Part shown: one piece after another, positions 17,056 through 23,856 of the stretch
How positions within the stretch are numbered: position 1 is the first letter of the stretch
Layout: each line of letters begins with the position of its first letter
Assembly: GCA_944325505.1 (NCBI GenBank)
Contig: CALVAJ010000024.1
Span: forward strand, 1 to 36,268
Length of the DNA: 36,268 nt
Source: an uncultured Bacteroidales bacterium
Lineage (GTDB): Bacteria > Bacteroidota > Bacteroidia > Bacteroidales > UBA932
Reading direction: 5' to 3'
Made by a program: the position numbers and the translations under genes
The notes under the pieces: model-generated
Told to the model about the DNA's origin: nothing
Database searches by the model: none
What the model saw: only the letters and a program-made list of their open reading frames with translations

Positions 17056-17163
17056 ATTGTCCTGGCGGTTTCCTGTATTGTTCTGGCGGATTTGTAAATT
17101 GTTCTGGCGGATTTGCAATCCGCCAGCCCGCACCACCGGCAGATTACAAATCCGCCGGAACAA
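17056..17163. repeat. Tandem 21-bp repeat nested in an inverted repeat
   Basis: Three 21-bp units start with ATTGTYCTGGCGG at 17056, 17077 and 17098. Unit 3 runs into the perfect palindrome CTGGCGGATT-TGC-AATCCGCCAG (17104-17126). TTGTTCTGGCGGATTTGTAA (17078-17097) is also inverted at 17144-17163 with one mismatch. The block could extrude as a large nested hairpin. It has no coding sense; ORFs across it are by-products of the repeat. Confidence 0.8.
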
Positions 17164-17272: not shown

Positions 17273-17362
17273 CTGCGGAAAACCCCGTCCTGAAAAATTG
17301 CCGGGATGGCGGACCATACTGCAAATTTTCAGAAATAATGCGGATACAAAACATTTTTTTTG

Positions 17363-17370
17363 TAGCTTTG
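17363..17370 (+). promoter_or_regulatory. Putative -7 box of the Phe/Tyr operon promoter
   Basis: TAGCTTTG is an exact match to the Bacteroidota -7 pattern TAnnTTTG. No TTG is present at the usual -33 spacing. The implied start near 17376 would leave almost no untranslated sequence before the leader ORF at 17379/17382, so that short ORF would be leaderless or nearly so. Confidence 0.5.
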
Positions 17371-17381
17371 TTCCCGTTATG

Positions 17382-17438
17382 ATGGATTTTCGATTTAACG
17401 CTTTCGGTTTTTATTACTTCTATTACCATGTAAGGTGA
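17382..17438 (+). CDS. Phe/Tyr-rich attenuation leader peptide
   Basis: This short ORF encodes MDFRFNAFGFYYFYYHVR followed by TGA; an in-frame ATG at 17379 would add one Met. Of 18 codons, five are Phe and four are Tyr, with a run of FYYFYY at residues 10-15. It lies directly upstream of an intrinsic terminator (17480-17512) and then the operon for phenylalanine and tyrosine synthesis. That is the arrangement of ribosome-mediated attenuation leaders such as E. coli pheL: stalling at Phe or Tyr codons when charged tRNA is scarce would favour readthrough. The peptide itself probably has no function other than being translated. The call depends on composition, position and RNA pairing; no homology was tested. 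Confidence 0.8.
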   Translation: MDFRFNAFGFYYFYYHVR

Positions 17439-17441
17439 TGG

Positions 17442-17512
17442 ACCGGAAGTCGTGTATCGTAATATAATGAGGTTTTATGGGCTGTCCGGTTGCATTCCGG
17501 GCAGCCTTTTTT
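17442..17512 (+). terminator. Attenuator: intrinsic terminator with competing antiterminator pairing
   Basis: The terminator stem is GGCTGTCCGG (17480-17489) with CCGGGCAGCC (17497-17506), ten pairs with one G-U, a 7-nt loop and six T (17507-17512). ACCGGA at 17442-17447, four nucleotides past the leader-peptide stop, can pair with TCCGGT at 17485-17490, within the terminator's left arm, and would disrupt it. A ribosome that reaches the stop codon (17436-17438) would cover ACCGGA and allow termination. One stalled on the Phe/Tyr codons would leave it free. The pheA ATG is 47 nt beyond the T run. Confidence 0.75.
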
Positions 17513-17559
17513 CGCATCAGACGGTCTGCATAAAAAGAATATAAACTGGTTATAATAAA

Positions 17560-18435
17560 ATGGACAAAAGGAAAAGAGTAGCTATACAGGGTTTTTCCGG
17601 TTGCTTTCACGAGCAGGCGGCAAGGCTGTTCTACGGTATGTCCGGCGGTTCCCTTGCCGGGAATGGAAAGGAGTCCGATCTGGAGATAGTGGAATGCGGT
17701 ACATTCGACGGGCTGTATGACGCTATGGATACAGGAAAGGCCGATGCCGCTATCATGGCTATCGAAAATACGGTCTCCGGCGGACTGCTTCCGAACTTCG
17801 AACTGCTCCGAAGGCACGATGAAAAGATAAAGGGGGAGGTTTTCCTGCGTATCTGCCAGAACCTGATGGCGCTTCCAGGCCAGAAGATAGAGGATATCCG
17901 CGAAGTGAGGACGCATTATATGGCCATAAACCAGACCAGACAGTTCTTTTCAGGATATCCGCACATCAGGATAGTGGAGTCTGAGGATACGGCGGGAAGT
18001 GCAGCCGATATCGCCTCAGGGCGGATTTACGGGGTGGGAGCGGTCGCATCGTCGCTGGCCGCAGAACTTTACGGGCTGGAAATCATCGCCCCGGGTATCG
18101 AGACCTATAAACAGAATTTCACCAGATTCCTCATAATGGACGACGGGATAACGGTACCGGAAGAAGATATAGACAAGGTCTCGCTCTGCTTTACCCTTCC
18201 GCATAAGGCCGGCTCATTGGCACAGGTGCTTACCATCCTTTCTTTCTATGACATGAACCTGACCAGGATCCAGTCCCTTCCGATTCCGGGCCGCGAATGG
18301 CAGTATTTCTTCTATGTAGACATAAAATTCGATTCCTATAAGCGTTATACCCAGGCACTTTCCGCGGTCCGTCCGCTGATGGAGGACCTGAAGGTGCTGG
18401 GAGAATACAAGAGTTTCAATCCTTCTATATCATGA
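17560..18435 (+). CDS. pheA: Prephenate dehydratase with ACT domain
   Basis: This 291-residue enzyme converts prephenate to phenylpyruvate in Phe synthesis. It is a monofunctional dehydratase: there is no N-terminal chorismate mutase domain, which here is fused to DAHP synthase instead. The catalytic domain (about 1-195) starts RVAIQGFSGCFHEQAARLFYG and contains AIMAIENTVSGGLLPNFELL, HYMAINQTRQFF and the TRF motif in NFTRFLIM. The C-terminal ACT domain (about 200-285) reads HKAGSLAQVLTILSFYDMNLTRIQSLPIPGREWQYFF and normally gives feedback inhibition by Phe. It is the first structural gene after the attenuator, and its stop overlaps the aminotransferase start. Confidence 0.95.
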   Translation: MDKRKRVAIQGFSGCFHEQAARLFYGMSGGSLAGNGKESDLEIVECGTFDGLYDAMDTGKADAAIMAIENTVSGGLLPNFELLRRHDEKIKGEVFLRICQNLMALPGQKIEDIREVRTHYMAINQTRQFFSGYPHIRIVESEDTAGSAADIASGRIYGVGAVASSLAAELYGLEIIAPGIETYKQNFTRFLIMDDGITVPEEDIDKVSLCFTLPHKAGSLAQVLTILSFYDMNLTRIQSLPIPGREWQYFFYVDIKFDSYKRYTQALSAVRPLMEDLKVLGEYKSFNPSIS

Positions 18436-19712
18436 TAATAAGACCGGCTGTCAGGACAGAAAACATAAACGAATATTATTTTTCTGCCAAACTTAAAGAA
18501 ATAGACCGTCTGAACGCTGCCAGAGCGGCAGAGGGTCTGGACAGGATAATCAATCTTGGCATAGGGGCCCCGGACGGAATGCCGCCTGCTCCTGCCATAG
18601 ATGCCCTGATATCGTCTGCCGCAGAACCCGGAAACCATGCATACCAGAGCTATGTGGGAATTCCGGAACTCCGTCAGGCTTTTGCCGGATGGTATGAACG
18701 GTATTATGGCGTGGATCTCGATCCCGCTTCGGAGATACAGCCTTTGGTCGGGTCCAAGGAAGGGATTCTGCTGCTTTCGCTGGCTTTCCTGAATGCCGGA
18801 GACAAAGTGCTGGTCCCTGATCCTGGCTATCCTACATATTCTTCGGCCACGGCTCTGGTCCAGGCTGTTCCGGTGAAATATGATCTGGTGGAGGAAAACG
18901 GATGGCAGCCTGATTTTGACGCTTTGGAACGTATGGACCTTTCCGGCGTCAAGATGATGTGGACCAACTATCCGAACATGCCTACCGGAGCTCCTGCGAC
19001 GGCGGTCCTTTACAGAAGGCTGGTGGATTTCGGGCTCCGGCACGGGATAATGATATGCAATGACAACCCTTACAGCTTCATTCTGAATGACCGTCCTCTT
19101 TCTATTCTGGCGGCTCCGGGAGCGAAAGAATGCTGCGTGGAACTGAATTCCCTTAGCAAGGCGCATAACATGTCCGGCTGGCGCATCGGGATGGCGGCAG
19201 CGGCACCGGATGTGATTTCCCAGCTTCTGAAAGTCAAGAGCCAGATGGATTCGGGGATGTTCAGACCGTTGCAGCTGGCTGCGGTGCAGGCTTTGGGACA
19301 GGGTCCGGAGTGGTTCAGGACGTTGAATGAGGAATACGGAAGAAGAAAAGTCCTGGCTGGAAAGATATTCGACATTATAGGAGTCGGATACGATCCTGAC
19401 AGTACGGGCATGTTCCTCTGGGGAAAGATAGGAAAGGACAATCCTCTGGCCCAGGAAAACCCTCCGTCTGCATGCAGGGGCGGGCTTGCCGGTCATGGAG
19501 GTGAAGAAGTCTGTCAAATGGGAGCCGGGGCCAGCCGCTCGCTCGGGGAGAAAATATCGGACAGGATTCTGTACGGGGCAGGGGTATTCATTACACCCGG
19601 GTTCATTTTCGGGAAGAACGGAAGGGACCATATCCGTATTTCGCTGTGTGCCAGGCCTGAAGTCCTGGAAGCGGCTGCCGGGAAAATCAGCGGACTGCTG
19701 AGTGGACTCTGA
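18432..19712 (+). CDS. Class I/II PLP aminotransferase (aromatic amino acid step)
   Basis: This 426-residue fold-type I aminotransferase starts inside the pheA stop (ATGA overlap), implying coupled translation. PLP-binding motifs are visible: the Schiff-base Lys243 in NSLSKAHNMSGWRIGMA, the GSKEGILLLSLAFLNAGDKVLVPDPGYPTY segment, and the arginine-bearing HIRISLCAR near the end. Its position between pheA and tyrA suggests it makes Phe and Tyr from phenylpyruvate and hydroxyphenylpyruvate; the family also includes LL-diaminopimelate- and aspartate-type enzymes, so substrate is inferred. Residues about 337-372 (from PLAQENPPSACRGGLAGHGG to GAGASRSLG) look like an insertion compared with what I recall of homologs, which continue directly from the MFLWGKI strand to the SDRILYGAGVFITPG strand. 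Confidence 0.9.
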   Translation: MIIRPAVRTENINEYYFSAKLKEIDRLNAARAAEGLDRIINLGIGAPDGMPPAPAIDALISSAAEPGNHAYQSYVGIPELRQAFAGWYERYYGVDLDPASEIQPLVGSKEGILLLSLAFLNAGDKVLVPDPGYPTYSSATALVQAVPVKYDLVEENGWQPDFDALERMDLSGVKMMWTNYPNMPTGAPATAVLYRRLVDFGLRHGIMICNDNPYSFILNDRPLSILAAPGAKECCVELNSLSKAHNMSGWRIGMAAAAPDVISQLLKVKSQMDSGMFRPLQLAAVQALGQGPEWFRTLNEEYGRRKVLAGKIFDIIGVGYDPDSTGMFLWGKIGKDNPLAQENPPSACRGGLAGHGGEEVCQMGAGASRSLGEKISDRILYGAGVFITPGFIFGKNGRDHIRISLCARPEVLEAAAGKISGLLSGL

Positions 19713-19735: not shown

Positions 19736-20635
19736 ATGAAACATCAGTATACAGTAACAGTCATAGGACTGGGTCTTATAGGCGGCTCGATGGCCGTCGA
19801 TCTCAGGCGTCGCGGGTTCGCTTCCCGTGTCATGGGAGTGGAAGCCGACCCGGTCAATGCCGCTGCAGCACGGCAGATAGGTCTTGTGGACCAGGTTATT
19901 CCGTATGACAAATGTCTGGATGACAGCGATGTGGTAATTCTTGCCGTTCCGGTTGGGGAGGCGGTGAGGATGTTGCCTGAACTGTTGGACCGGATAGGGA
20001 AATGCGGGAAAGGAGAAGGTCCGGAGGAATATTGCCGGAACGGATACGGAAAAACAATCATTGATGTCTGTTCCACCAAATCCGCTTTGGTGAAGGCGGC
20101 CGAAGGCCATCCGATGCGTGGCCGGTACGTCTCTACCCATCCTATGGCGGGAACGGAATACTCGGGCCCCTGGGCTGCAATGTCCGGGATGTTCGACGGC
20201 AAGGCGTGCGTGATATGCGACAGCGGAGAGTCGGACCGGGATGCGTTGGAGACGGTTGAAAAACTGTATGATGTCCTGAATATGAGGACAATACGGATGG
20301 AGGCCGCTAATCACGACATGCATGCGGCCTATGTGTCTCATATTTCTCATGTGACATCTTTCGCCTTGGCTCTTACGGTGTTGAAGCAGGAGCGCAGCGA
20401 CAGGCATATCTTTGACCTTGCCTCGGGAGGATTTTCATCGACTGTCAGGCTTGCAAAGAGCAACGCCGACATGTGGGTGCCGATTCTTTCCCAGAACCGG
20501 AACAACATCCTGGATGTCATTGACACTTACATGGATGAGATGAAAGCCTTCCGGGATGCAATAGCGGCTGGGGACGAGGCCGGAATCCGGGAACTTATCG
20601 GAGAGGCGAACAGAATCAGAAGGATTATAAAATAA
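19736..20635 (+). CDS. tyrA: Prephenate dehydrogenase
   Basis: This 299-residue protein oxidatively decarboxylates prephenate to 4-hydroxyphenylpyruvate in tyrosine synthesis using NAD(P). It begins with a Rossmann dinucleotide-binding motif GLGLIGGS (11-18) preceded by the usual hydrophobic strand YTVTVI; DSDVVILAVPVGEAVRMLPEL, DVCSTKSALVKAA, STHPMAGTEYSGPWAA (substrate binding) and the helical C-terminal half (HDMHAAYVSHISHVTSFALAL) are typical of the TyrA family. There is no fused mutase and no obvious C-terminal ACT domain. It is the third structural gene of the attenuated operon, 23 nt after the aminotransferase. Confidence 0.94.
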   Translation: MKHQYTVTVIGLGLIGGSMAVDLRRRGFASRVMGVEADPVNAAAARQIGLVDQVIPYDKCLDDSDVVILAVPVGEAVRMLPELLDRIGKCGKGEGPEEYCRNGYGKTIIDVCSTKSALVKAAEGHPMRGRYVSTHPMAGTEYSGPWAAMSGMFDGKACVICDSGESDRDALETVEKLYDVLNMRTIRMEAANHDMHAAYVSHISHVTSFALALTVLKQERSDRHIFDLASGGFSSTVRLAKSNADMWVPILSQNRNNILDVIDTYMDEMKAFRDAIAAGDEAGIRELIGEANRIRRIIK

Positions 20636-20663: not shown

Positions 20664-21770
20664 ATGGAAAGAAGATTGGAAGTTGTACCGGCAGGTCAAT
20701 GGAACCTGTTCCCTGAAAGGCAGCCGCTGGTGATAGCCGGCCCCTGCAGTGCCGAGTCGGAAATCCAGGTAATGGAAACGGCGAGACGTATCAAGTCGCT
20801 GGGTGTCAATGTATTCCGTGCGGGGATTTGGAAACCTCGCACCCATCCCGGGACATTCGAGGGAGTCGGGACTCCCGGCCTGAAATGGCTGCAGAGGGTC
20901 AAGAACGAACTCGGCATGAAAGTATGTACTGAGGTTGCAAGCGAAAGGCATGTTTTCGACTGCCTGAAATACGGGGTGGACATGGTGTGGCTCGGCGCCA
21001 GGACTACGGCCAATCCGTTTCTTGTGCAGGAGATAGCCGAAGCCCTTAGGGATGTGGATATTCCGGTGCTTGTAAAGAACCCCGTCAGTCCTGACCTGGA
21101 TCTGTGGGTAGGTGCGTTGGAGCGGCTTAACCAGGCGGGCGTCAAGAAGATAGGAGTCATTCACCGGGGATTCTCTACCTCCGACAGGATTCCGTACAGG
21201 AATTCCCCGCATTGGCAGGTGGCCATAGAACTGAGGAGCCGCTGCCCCCAGCTTCCGTTTTTCTGCGATCCGAGCCATATGGCGGGATGTACGGAGTATA
21301 TAGAGGAGATTTCCCAGAGGTCTCTTGACCTGGGGCTTGACGGACTGATGATAGAGACGCACTGCGACCCGTCATGTGCCTTGAGCGATGCCAGGCAGCA
21401 GCTGACTCCGGAGCAGCTGGGAGAACTGCTCGGCAGGCTTGTTGTCCGCAACCAGGATTCGGACAATGTAGAGTATAAGGAGAATATCGACCAGCTCCGT
21501 GCCCAGATAGACGTCATCGATGACAATATCCTTTATATCCTGGCCTCCCGTATGAAGATCAGCCGCAAGATAGGGGAGTACAAGAAAAAGAACAATATTG
21601 CCATCCTGCAGACTTCCCGCTGGGACTCGGTGCTGGAAAAGGTCACGGGAAAAGGAGCCGAGTACGGACTGTCAGAGAAGTTTGTGACGACCCTTTTCAA
21701 TGCCATTCATGACGCTTCCGTGCAGGAACAGAACGCTATCCTCGGAGCTTCGAGTCAAGAAGGGAAATGA
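20664..21770 (+). CDS. Bifunctional DAHP synthase / chorismate mutase
   Basis: This 368-residue protein fuses the first shikimate-pathway enzyme (DAHP synthase, type I beta, residues about 10-262) to an AroQ-type chorismate mutase (about 270-357). DAHP synthase motifs include AGPCSAES (25-32), FRAGIWKPRTHPGTFEGVG, TEVASERHV, GARTTANPF, PVLVKNPVSPD, GVIHRGFST and CDPSHMAG. The mutase half reads ENIDQLRAQIDVIDDNILYILASRMKISRKIGEYKK, with the expected Arg and Lys residues. The mutase makes prephenate, the substrate of both PheA and TyrA upstream, so all the enzymes needed from chorismate to Phe and Tyr are in one operon, along with the flux-controlling first step. Its last 35 nt overlap the convergent lpxK. 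Confidence 0.95.
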   Translation: MERRLEVVPAGQWNLFPERQPLVIAGPCSAESEIQVMETARRIKSLGVNVFRAGIWKPRTHPGTFEGVGTPGLKWLQRVKNELGMKVCTEVASERHVFDCLKYGVDMVWLGARTTANPFLVQEIAEALRDVDIPVLVKNPVSPDLDLWVGALERLNQAGVKKIGVIHRGFSTSDRIPYRNSPHWQVAIELRSRCPQLPFFCDPSHMAGCTEYIEEISQRSLDLGLDGLMIETHCDPSCALSDARQQLTPEQLGELLGRLVVRNQDSDNVEYKENIDQLRAQIDVIDDNILYILASRMKISRKIGEYKKKNNIAILQTSRWDSVLEKVTGKGAEYGLSEKFVTTLFNAIHDASVQEQNAILGASSQEGK

Positions 21771-22872: not shown

Positions 22873-23856
22873 CTAATCTTTGTTTTTCAATTTTTTTATC
22901 TCTTTATCAAAATCACTTTCATACGACAACATTTCGCGTTTACGGTAGATTTCAAATTCTTTTTCAGCTTTTTCAATGGCCTGTTTATGCGAAATGTTTC
23001 CTTTGCCGGTCAAAACTTTCCGTTTACTGGCAATAATCTGACTGTCAAGAGCCTTGATCCAGTCTTTCATTGTCATGGGATTCATTTCCAGTGCCTGGAG
23101 CTCTGCAAAATCCAGAAATCCTGAAACCAGAAGATTCAAGCGCTGCAGTTCAATCTCAGATAAATAATTCTTGGCGATTTTCACATCGTCTTTAGTTACA
23201 TAGTTGCCTTTAAAATTGGTCATTCCTACAAAAGGTTTTTCGTTGTCTACACGATGGTAGATTATTTCTGCGGCGGTATTTTCATGGACGGCATAATGTA
23301 ACTTGTTTTGTACAGTGGCAAAGAAAGTTTTGGTCATCTCACTGCGAGGGTCATAATCCGTTGACGTGGCATAAATATCCGTAACCTGCTGATAGAAATT
23401 ACGCTCACTACTACGGATATCCCTGATTCGCTGCAACAACTCACGGAAATAACGGTTGCCTCCTTGCTTTAACCGTTCGTCATCCAGAGCAAACCCTTTC
23501 TGGATATACTCATGCAGCCGTTGTGTCGCCCATCTGCGGAAACGGGTTGCGACCTGAGACTGGATACGATACCCCAAAGCTATAATCATATCAAGATTAT
23601 AATGGTCTATGTTACGTTTTACCTGACGATTGCCTTCCTGTCGAACTGACAAGAATTTCTTGTTAGTTGCTTCTATGTTGAGTTCTCCATCTTTGTAGAT
23701 ATTGTCCACATGTCGGCTGATATTCTGCTGGGTAGTACAATATATTTCCGCCAGCTGATTCTGTGTCAGCCACAAATCCTCATCTGCAAACCGCACCGAT
23801 ACGCTGGTTATCTCGTCATCGTCCTGATAGATTATTATTTTGTTTTCGTTATTCAT
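22873..23856 (-). CDS. RhuM-family protein
   Basis: This 327-residue protein matches the RhuM family (first noted in a Salmonella pathogenicity island, common on mobile and phage-related DNA; molecular function unknown). Typical features are the N-terminal IIIYQDDDEITSVSVRFADEDLWLTQNQLAEIY, a phage-antirepressor-like helix-turn-helix region with TTQQNISRHVDNIYKDGEL, then KRNIDHYNLDMIIALGYRIQSQVATRFRRWATQRLHEYIQKGF and a C-terminal region rich in Lys and Glu (HKQAIEKAEKEFEIYRKREM). Codon use is distinctly more AT-rich than that of its neighbours, suggesting acquisition by transfer. It is inserted exactly in front of lpxK with no gap and has its own strong promoter. Confidence 0.88.
   Translation of the reverse strand: MNNENKIIIYQDDDEITSVSVRFADEDLWLTQNQLAEIYCTTQQNISRHVDNIYKDGELNIEATNKKFLSVRQEGNRQVKRNIDHYNLDMIIALGYRIQSQVATRFRRWATQRLHEYIQKGFALDDERLKQGGNRYFRELLQRIRDIRSSERNFYQQVTDIYATSTDYDPRSEMTKTFFATVQNKLHYAVHENTAAEIIYHRVDNEKPFVGMTNFKGNYVTKDDVKIAKNYLSEIELQRLNLLVSGFLDFAELQALEMNPMTMKDWIKALDSQIIASKRKVLTGKGNISHKQAIEKAEKEFEIYRKREMLSYESDFDKEIKKLKNKD

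Follow-up and report, generated by a model that had tools for sequence, protein, structure and literature searches.

A probable Phe/Tyr leader-peptide attenuator ahead of the pheA operon in an uncultured Bacteroidales bacterium and its relatives

We analyzed a 36,268-nucleotide stretch of DNA from an uncultured Bacteroidales bacterium (GCA_944325505.1, contig CALVAJ010000024.1; hereafter the window) that contains four aromatic amino acid genes on the forward strand. Pfam matches confirmed all four as they had been named in an earlier reading made without database searches (the sequence-only reading): pheA, for prephenate dehydratase (17560-18435; PF00800); a class I/II aminotransferase gene (18432-19712; PF00155); tyrA, for prephenate dehydrogenase (19736-20635; PF02153 and PF20463); and a gene for DAHP synthase with a C-terminal chorismate mutase (20664-21770; PF00793 and PF01817). 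Among the best 80 of 588 matches, the closest named PheA is that of Candidatus Cryptobacteroides avicola (85% identity; locus L032). Candidatus Cryptobacteroides is a genus of Bacteroidales, and the window comes from a relative. The window's own assembly (G000; 2.36 Mb, 92% completeness) had no match to the HisG, IlvD or chorismate-binding families. The organism is perhaps an auxotroph for His, the branched-chain amino acids and Trp that retains Phe and Tyr synthesis.

We found a putative promoter box, a short Phe/Tyr-rich open reading frame and a predicted intrinsic terminator upstream of pheA, all on the forward strand. The box, TAGCTTTG (17363-17370), matches the Bacteroidota -7 consensus TAnnTTTG given in the available text of PMC7366714. 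It ends 8 nt before the first ATG (17379) of a 19-codon leader ORF, MMDFRFNAFGFYYFYYHVR (17379-17438; stop TGA at 17436-17438), that encodes five Phe and four Tyr from a near-leaderless start. A second ATG lies at 17382. The sequence-only reading had started there and counted 18 codons; its residue counts hold, and the start is probably 17379. The codons Phe-Tyr-Tyr-Phe-Tyr-Tyr (17409-17426) are the candidate regulatory codons, judged from the sequence and from ribosome masking. An ORF with at least 7 Phe/Tyr codons in 10 arose in 1 of 2000 shuffles of positions 17300-17559. The predicted terminator (17479-17512) stands between the leader ORF and the first gene, pheA, and consists of a hairpin (17479-17507) followed by six T (17507-17512); the pheA ATG at 17560 begins 47 nt farther on. 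The earlier reading had already noted both the box and the terminator.

Four segments of this leader allow 1:2, 2:3 and 3:4 pairing, the full classical set. Segment 1 (17391-17408), within the leader ORF, pairs with segment 2 (17442-17459) in the predicted fold and in the pair counts on 24 leaders given below. Segment 2 is predicted to pair with segment 3 (17479-17490) when a ribosome stalls. Segment 3 would serve both as the right arm of this antiterminator and as the left arm of the terminator, which segment 4 and its T-run (17497-17512) complete in the predicted fold. The sequence-only reading had recognized the terminator and had proposed an antiterminator formed by ACCGGA (17442-17447) and TCCGGT (17485-17490); both sequences are present, and the 1:2 helix with segment 1 was missed. 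The region 17375-17520 folded better than 200 of 200 dinucleotide shuffles (-49.9 vs. a mean of -32.6 kcal/mol; z = -4.9).

We consider it very probable that the leader acts as a ribosome-mediated transcription attenuator with joint sensing of Phe and Tyr. We infer the following course of events, from the transcript start and stalling to kinetic trapping of the 2:3 pairing, termination and regulation by Phe and Tyr. RNA polymerase would start a few nucleotides before, or at, the first leader ATG, and a ribosome would load on the near-leaderless start and trail the polymerase. If charged tRNA-Phe or tRNA-Tyr were short, the ribosome would stall at 17409-17426 and cover segment 1. At a point where the polymerase has yet to make segment 4, the free segment 2 would pair with segment 3. 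This would forestall the terminator, and the genes for PheA, the aminotransferase, TyrA and DAHP synthase/chorismate mutase would be transcribed. If both charged tRNAs were plentiful, the ribosome would reach the stop codon and cover segment 2, and the 3:4 hairpin would end transcription at 17507-17512. A leader that is not translated would form the 1:2 helix, and transcription would terminate too.

Folding predictions with a masked ribosome agree with part of this course. With segment 4 absent, 2:3 folded when the ribosome was placed on each of the seven Phe/Tyr codons (7/7), and did not fold when it was placed at the leader stop. The free leader RNA folded as 1:2 plus 3:4. With segment 4 included, 3:4 was the minimum-energy fold at every ribosome position tried, stalled ones too, so a working switch would depend on kinetics, with 2:3 forming first. 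The classical model of attenuation likewise relies on 2:3 forming first. For the antiterminator of the sequence-only reading, which would break the terminator, the energies favor 2:3 under a stalled ribosome in RNA that still lacks segment 4, and the terminator in every state of the full leader.

We found that the box lies unusually close to the leader ATG in the window's group, which comprises 24 leaders from the leadered loci of same-genus genomes and from named contigs L032-L046. In 16 of the 24 the ATG is 8-11 nt past a TAnnTTTG box, with 8-9 nt to the first ATG; the window and L032 count as 11 nt by their second ATG and have another at 8. The other eight had spacings of 18-23 nt (seven leaders) or no box (one). 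As a comparison, we took the distance from box to first ATG for ORFs of at least 100 codons in the window and L032-L053 (n = 54), these pairs being pattern matches and not mapped promoters. None of the 54 fell at 8-11 nt and two at 5-7 nt, with a peak at 24-29 nt (16/24 vs. 0/54 at the short spacing; Fisher, 4e-11). Among box-ORF pairs from the other named loci, 2 of 100 fell at 8-11 nt and 8 of 100 below. The comparison peak agrees with the mode of 23 nt that the available text of PMC7366714 gives for 5' UTRs of B. thetaiotaomicron; by that offset, the predicted 5' UTR here is approximately 0-5 nt. Scattered short spacings were also seen in L097 (4 nt), L107 (6), L160 and L162 (8), L179 (7), L181 (10) and L184 (5).

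Our results might also indicate that leader translation attenuates a transcript with an ordinary leadered start, in which case transcription would begin farther upstream, from a promoter other than the box at 17363. We saw no TTTG near -33 of the box when the sequence was read directly. Outside the group, 54 of 73 leaders (L053 left out) have the box 18-33 nt from the ATG, the rest having no box in range (16) or spacings of 4, 15 and 35 nt (3), and few 5' UTRs of B. thetaiotaomicron are shorter than 10 nt (~3.7%; PMC7366714, available text). These points favor a leadered start. However, they do not account for the 8-9 nt between box and first ATG in two thirds of the group, a spacing range that was empty among the 54 comparison pairs. 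Further, among the 16 short-spaced leaders, only those of the window and L032 have an additional in-frame ATG, the doubled one; an in-frame GTG or TTG lies farther upstream in 8 of the 16. We regard a leadered start as rather unlikely.

Comparison with other loci indicates that the attenuator is not peculiar to this genome. We pooled pheA loci from 61 genomes (the window's own and relatives; 30 loci plus L001), from named contigs (the best 80 of 588) and from 197 genomes of the class, 58 of which had a PheA match and from which at least 30 loci entered the pool. After removal of duplicates and of loci with less than 200 nt upstream, 132 loci were left. A leader was scored if a terminator accompanied an ORF in which 6 or more of 10 codons were for Phe or Tyr, and pheA was called first if no ORF of at least 90 codons ended within 100 nt upstream on the same strand. 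Phe/Tyr-rich leaders with terminators were present at 98 of the 132 distinct loci, a rate that belongs to this sample, picked by PheA similarity, and is not a phylum-wide frequency. They preceded pheA at 94 of 106 pheA-first loci and at 4 of 26 other loci.

A second scan covered 58 further loci with the cut-off lowered to 5 Phe/Tyr in 10 codons. Leader and terminator were found in all 18 loci of one family, that of genome G053 (L142 repeats L031; L148 repeats L054), in 14 of 20 additional loci from the class, and in 7 of 20 loci from a search of the phylum, including three outside the class (L180, L185, L186). A class search with the PheA of locus L107 gave 30 loci, 12 of them new, and 8 of the 12 had a Phe/Tyr leader and terminator. 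No leader was recognized in L164, L165, L174, L176 and L199 of the second scan, nor in L093, though partner genes were present. L173, L177 and L187-L198 had neither a leader nor, by tblastn with the window's proteins, a partner gene in ~2.8 kb. In families f38 and f42, with pheA-aminotransferase-tyrA operons, the leader was unrecognized in L122, L124, L126, L128, L129, L131, L136, L228 and L246; these operons may have lost the leader or come under other control.

Two loci of the survey stand apart. At L055, which is 69.9% GC, a Tyr/Phe ORF, MTALRYYGTSYAFRFSG (5/10), and a hairpin precede pheA-tyrA-DAHP. The contig is labeled Lentisphaerae and its PheA is Bacteroidota-like (53%), from either a mislabel or a transfer. 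At L041, where no leader was seen, pheA is followed by a gene for an alpha/beta hydrolase, which we take to resemble homoserine acetyltransferase, and then by one for aspartokinase-homoserine dehydrogenase.

The Phe/Tyr bias that the sequence-only reading had noticed in the window is kept in the homologous leaders. Both residues occur in 97 of the 98, with at least two of each in 96 and means of 5.0 Phe and 4.0 Tyr; Trp codons lie near the Phe/Tyr codons in 13. Leader residues followed operon content in two rearranged genomes, and the evidence for residue swaps comes from these two. The first is G053. Its pheA leader (L031), MTRFFTHFFFFFTQQ, is the sole one without Tyr (7 Phe, 0 Tyr), and here pheA is alone, all three partner genes being absent from the 1.5 kb downstream. 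(Only one other leadered locus, L062, lacks partners, and its sequence ends there.) By Pfam, tyrA and the DAHP synthase-chorismate mutase gene of G053 sit together away from pheA, behind a leader of their own, MNNTFGYYAFYYYFFYNN, with 6 Tyr and 4 Phe. It has a terminator (-18.7) and a 2:3 pairing (-19.4) that none of 200 shuffles matched. The 17 other loci of the family, 10 of which are closely similar leaders from one genus, all have both residues (17/17), and TyrA is in reach in 16 of them.

The second rearranged genome is that of L107, in which pheA is followed by ilvD and then by genes for both acetolactate synthase subunits, large and small (all identified by Pfam; the names ilvB and ilvN were assigned in this analysis). 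Its leader, MIAEISYGSINFIFFFFGNPEKGP, has 5 Phe, 4 Ile and 1 Tyr, with a terminator and 2:3 pairing present, and at 5/10 it scored under the cut-off of the main scan. This is an odd mixed pheA-ilv operon behind a Phe/Ile-rich leader; no second one was noticed, in a survey that scanned downstream genes for the three partner families only. Stand-alone tyrA genes (L203-L208, L212) had no clear leader. Little DNA precedes the first gene in L203 and L204, a single doubtful candidate lies ~600 nt away in L205, and tyrA closely follows another gene in L207 and L208. The tyrA of genome G065 (L203) is maybe separated from pheA merely by a contig end and was not counted as split.

These residues bear on whether the leader might sense Phe only, with Tyr codons as passengers. 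Phe (TTT/TTC) and Tyr (TAT/TAC) codons are one base apart and swap between related leaders. In addition, the leader of a pheA-DAHP operon (L139) retains 3 Tyr with its tyrA on another contig, behind an aminotransferase gene, so Tyr codons need no neighboring tyrA; that operon does keep DAHP synthase, which feeds both Phe and Tyr. Nevertheless, passengers would not be expected nearly to equal Phe in number across the 98 leaders, to be gone where pheA is alone, and to outnumber Phe in the tyrA-DAHP leader of the same genome. We consider a Phe-only attenuator improbable, and joint sensing of Phe and Tyr the better account.

We found that the antiterminator pairing is kept in most leaders. The test region runs from after the last Phe/Tyr codon, in order to include ORFs that run through segment 2. 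It was redefined after the result of a first version had been seen, and the controls were computed on the new region; the first version, begun at the leader stop, gave -7.1 (matched) vs. -5.6 (mismatched) and fails where ORFs run through segment 2. In the 98 leaders, the mean 2:3 energy was -13.7 kcal/mol for a locus's own arms, -9.4 for arms exchanged between loci and -7.2 for shuffled sequence. Energies were -8 kcal/mol or better in 95 of 98. The pairing beat 95% of a locus's own shuffles in 73 of 98 loci and fewer in 25; the window's own energy beat only 94% of mononucleotide shuffles. Partner sequences of segments 2 and 3 co-vary, e.g., GAGCGGGA/TCCCGCT, AGGCAGGA/TCCTGCC, AACGGGAT/ATCCCGTA and AGCCGGGACT/AGTCCCGGC. 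As judged from these comparisons, the antiterminator pairing, which the earlier reading had proposed, is kept across families while its letters change, and the signal is weaker within the window's group.

Within the 24-leader alignment of that group, the three helices differ in how much they vary. For 1:2, 80.0% of cells were paired and 8 of 16 pairs had changed on both sides (reached by 1 of 500 shuffles), and the helix also exceeded slid versions. For 2:3, 91.0% of cells were paired; two pairs had changed on both sides, which 243 of 500 shuffles reach, and the covariation score was reached by 1 of 500 and also exceeded that of slid versions. The terminator helix, 3:4, was 94.0% paired and had no excess covariation in this alignment, where it hardly varies. 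Both alternative stems of the sequence-only reading are conserved, with compensatory change across families. That the hairpin merely ends upstream transcription or a small RNA, with the ORF a chance product, is very hard to credit: T-rich sequence favors Phe/Tyr codons and terminators are common, but 98 of 132 pheA loci have an ORF plus terminator, compared with only 2 of 3570 tiles cut from these loci and 1 of 2120 dinucleotide-shuffled sequences, the antiterminator covaries, and GC-rich L055 has a Tyr/Phe ORF (5/10) and hairpin too.

The comparative evidence supports the pheL-like logic that the sequence-only reading had suggested. In E. coli pheL-pheA, a leader peptide with cognate codons, a 1:2, 2:3 and 3:4 alternation and a terminator lie before pheA, and the predicted attenuator is similar in all three respects. 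Unlike pheL, it would read Tyr codons too, heads a pheA-tyrA-DAHP synthase operon, has a near-leaderless start in the window's group and matches no Rfam family. E. coli thrL and ilvL are cases in which one leader reads codons for more than one end product of an operon. The leader described here likewise has two kinds of regulatory residue; it differs in that these are the aromatic pair Phe/Tyr, in another phylum, with content that varies with operon content in two rearranged genomes. At the gathering cut-off, Rfam gave no family in the window, including Bacteroid-trp RNA (RF01692), which is a Trp leader, the T-box and the Rfam family named Phe leader. The leaders of eight other loci had no family at this cut-off either. 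Relaxing E to 10 brought up just four weak matches in the window, all of them unrelated.

The nearest prior report that we found concerns Flavobacterium psychrophilum, in which a structured 5' element precedes pheA and is conserved in other genera of Flavobacteriaceae (PMC9723704, available text). The same paper describes hints of attenuation by leader peptides ahead of amino acid operons. The element resembles the leader here in gene, phylum and lack of an Rfam match; supplements aside, that text gives no peptide or residue specificity. Bacteroid-trp RNA is described as a candidate cis-regulatory RNA of Bacteroidetes (PMC2864571, available text); it concerns another amino acid and has no match to the window. 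In Sinorhizobium meliloti, the available text of PMC7298713 describes trpL as a leaderless leader peptide whose attenuator transcript has its 5' end at the leader ATG. A 5' end at or near the leader ATG is predicted here as well, in another phylum, whereas trpL senses Trp. pheA itself is listed among attenuated operons (PMC1183508, available text).

The attenuation mechanism is already known, and multi-residue leaders and leaderless leader peptides are known separately. What is apparently new is the Phe/Tyr specificity, the breadth and the near-leaderless form. A Phe/Tyr leader peptide in Bacteroidota was not found in the literature searched (subscription papers and supplements fell outside its scope), and that literature says little about amino acid control by leader peptides in this main gut phylum. 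We lean somewhat toward a broader view, in which dual Phe/Tyr attenuators form a class across Bacteroidota. The peptide would act as an either-or sensor, and its residues would be re-tuned by selection as operons split and re-join (only Phe where pheA is alone, many Tyr before tyrA-DAHP, and Phe/Ile before pheA-ilv). In Cryptobacteroides the class would be near-leaderless, with transcription and translation starting almost together. Operon splits with matching leader residues are natural experiments, and a near-leaderless attenuator would test how ribosomes without Shine-Dalgarno help match the pace of RNA polymerase.

We noted two further features of the window. At 17056-17163, in the gap upstream of the leader, a 21-nt direct repeat occurs in three copies (ATTGTTCTGGCGGATTTG...) along with inverted arms 20-26 nt long; together these look like a small palindromic repeat element. 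On the minus strand, a gene of the RhuM family lies at 22873-23856 (PF13310; E = 1.7e-108).
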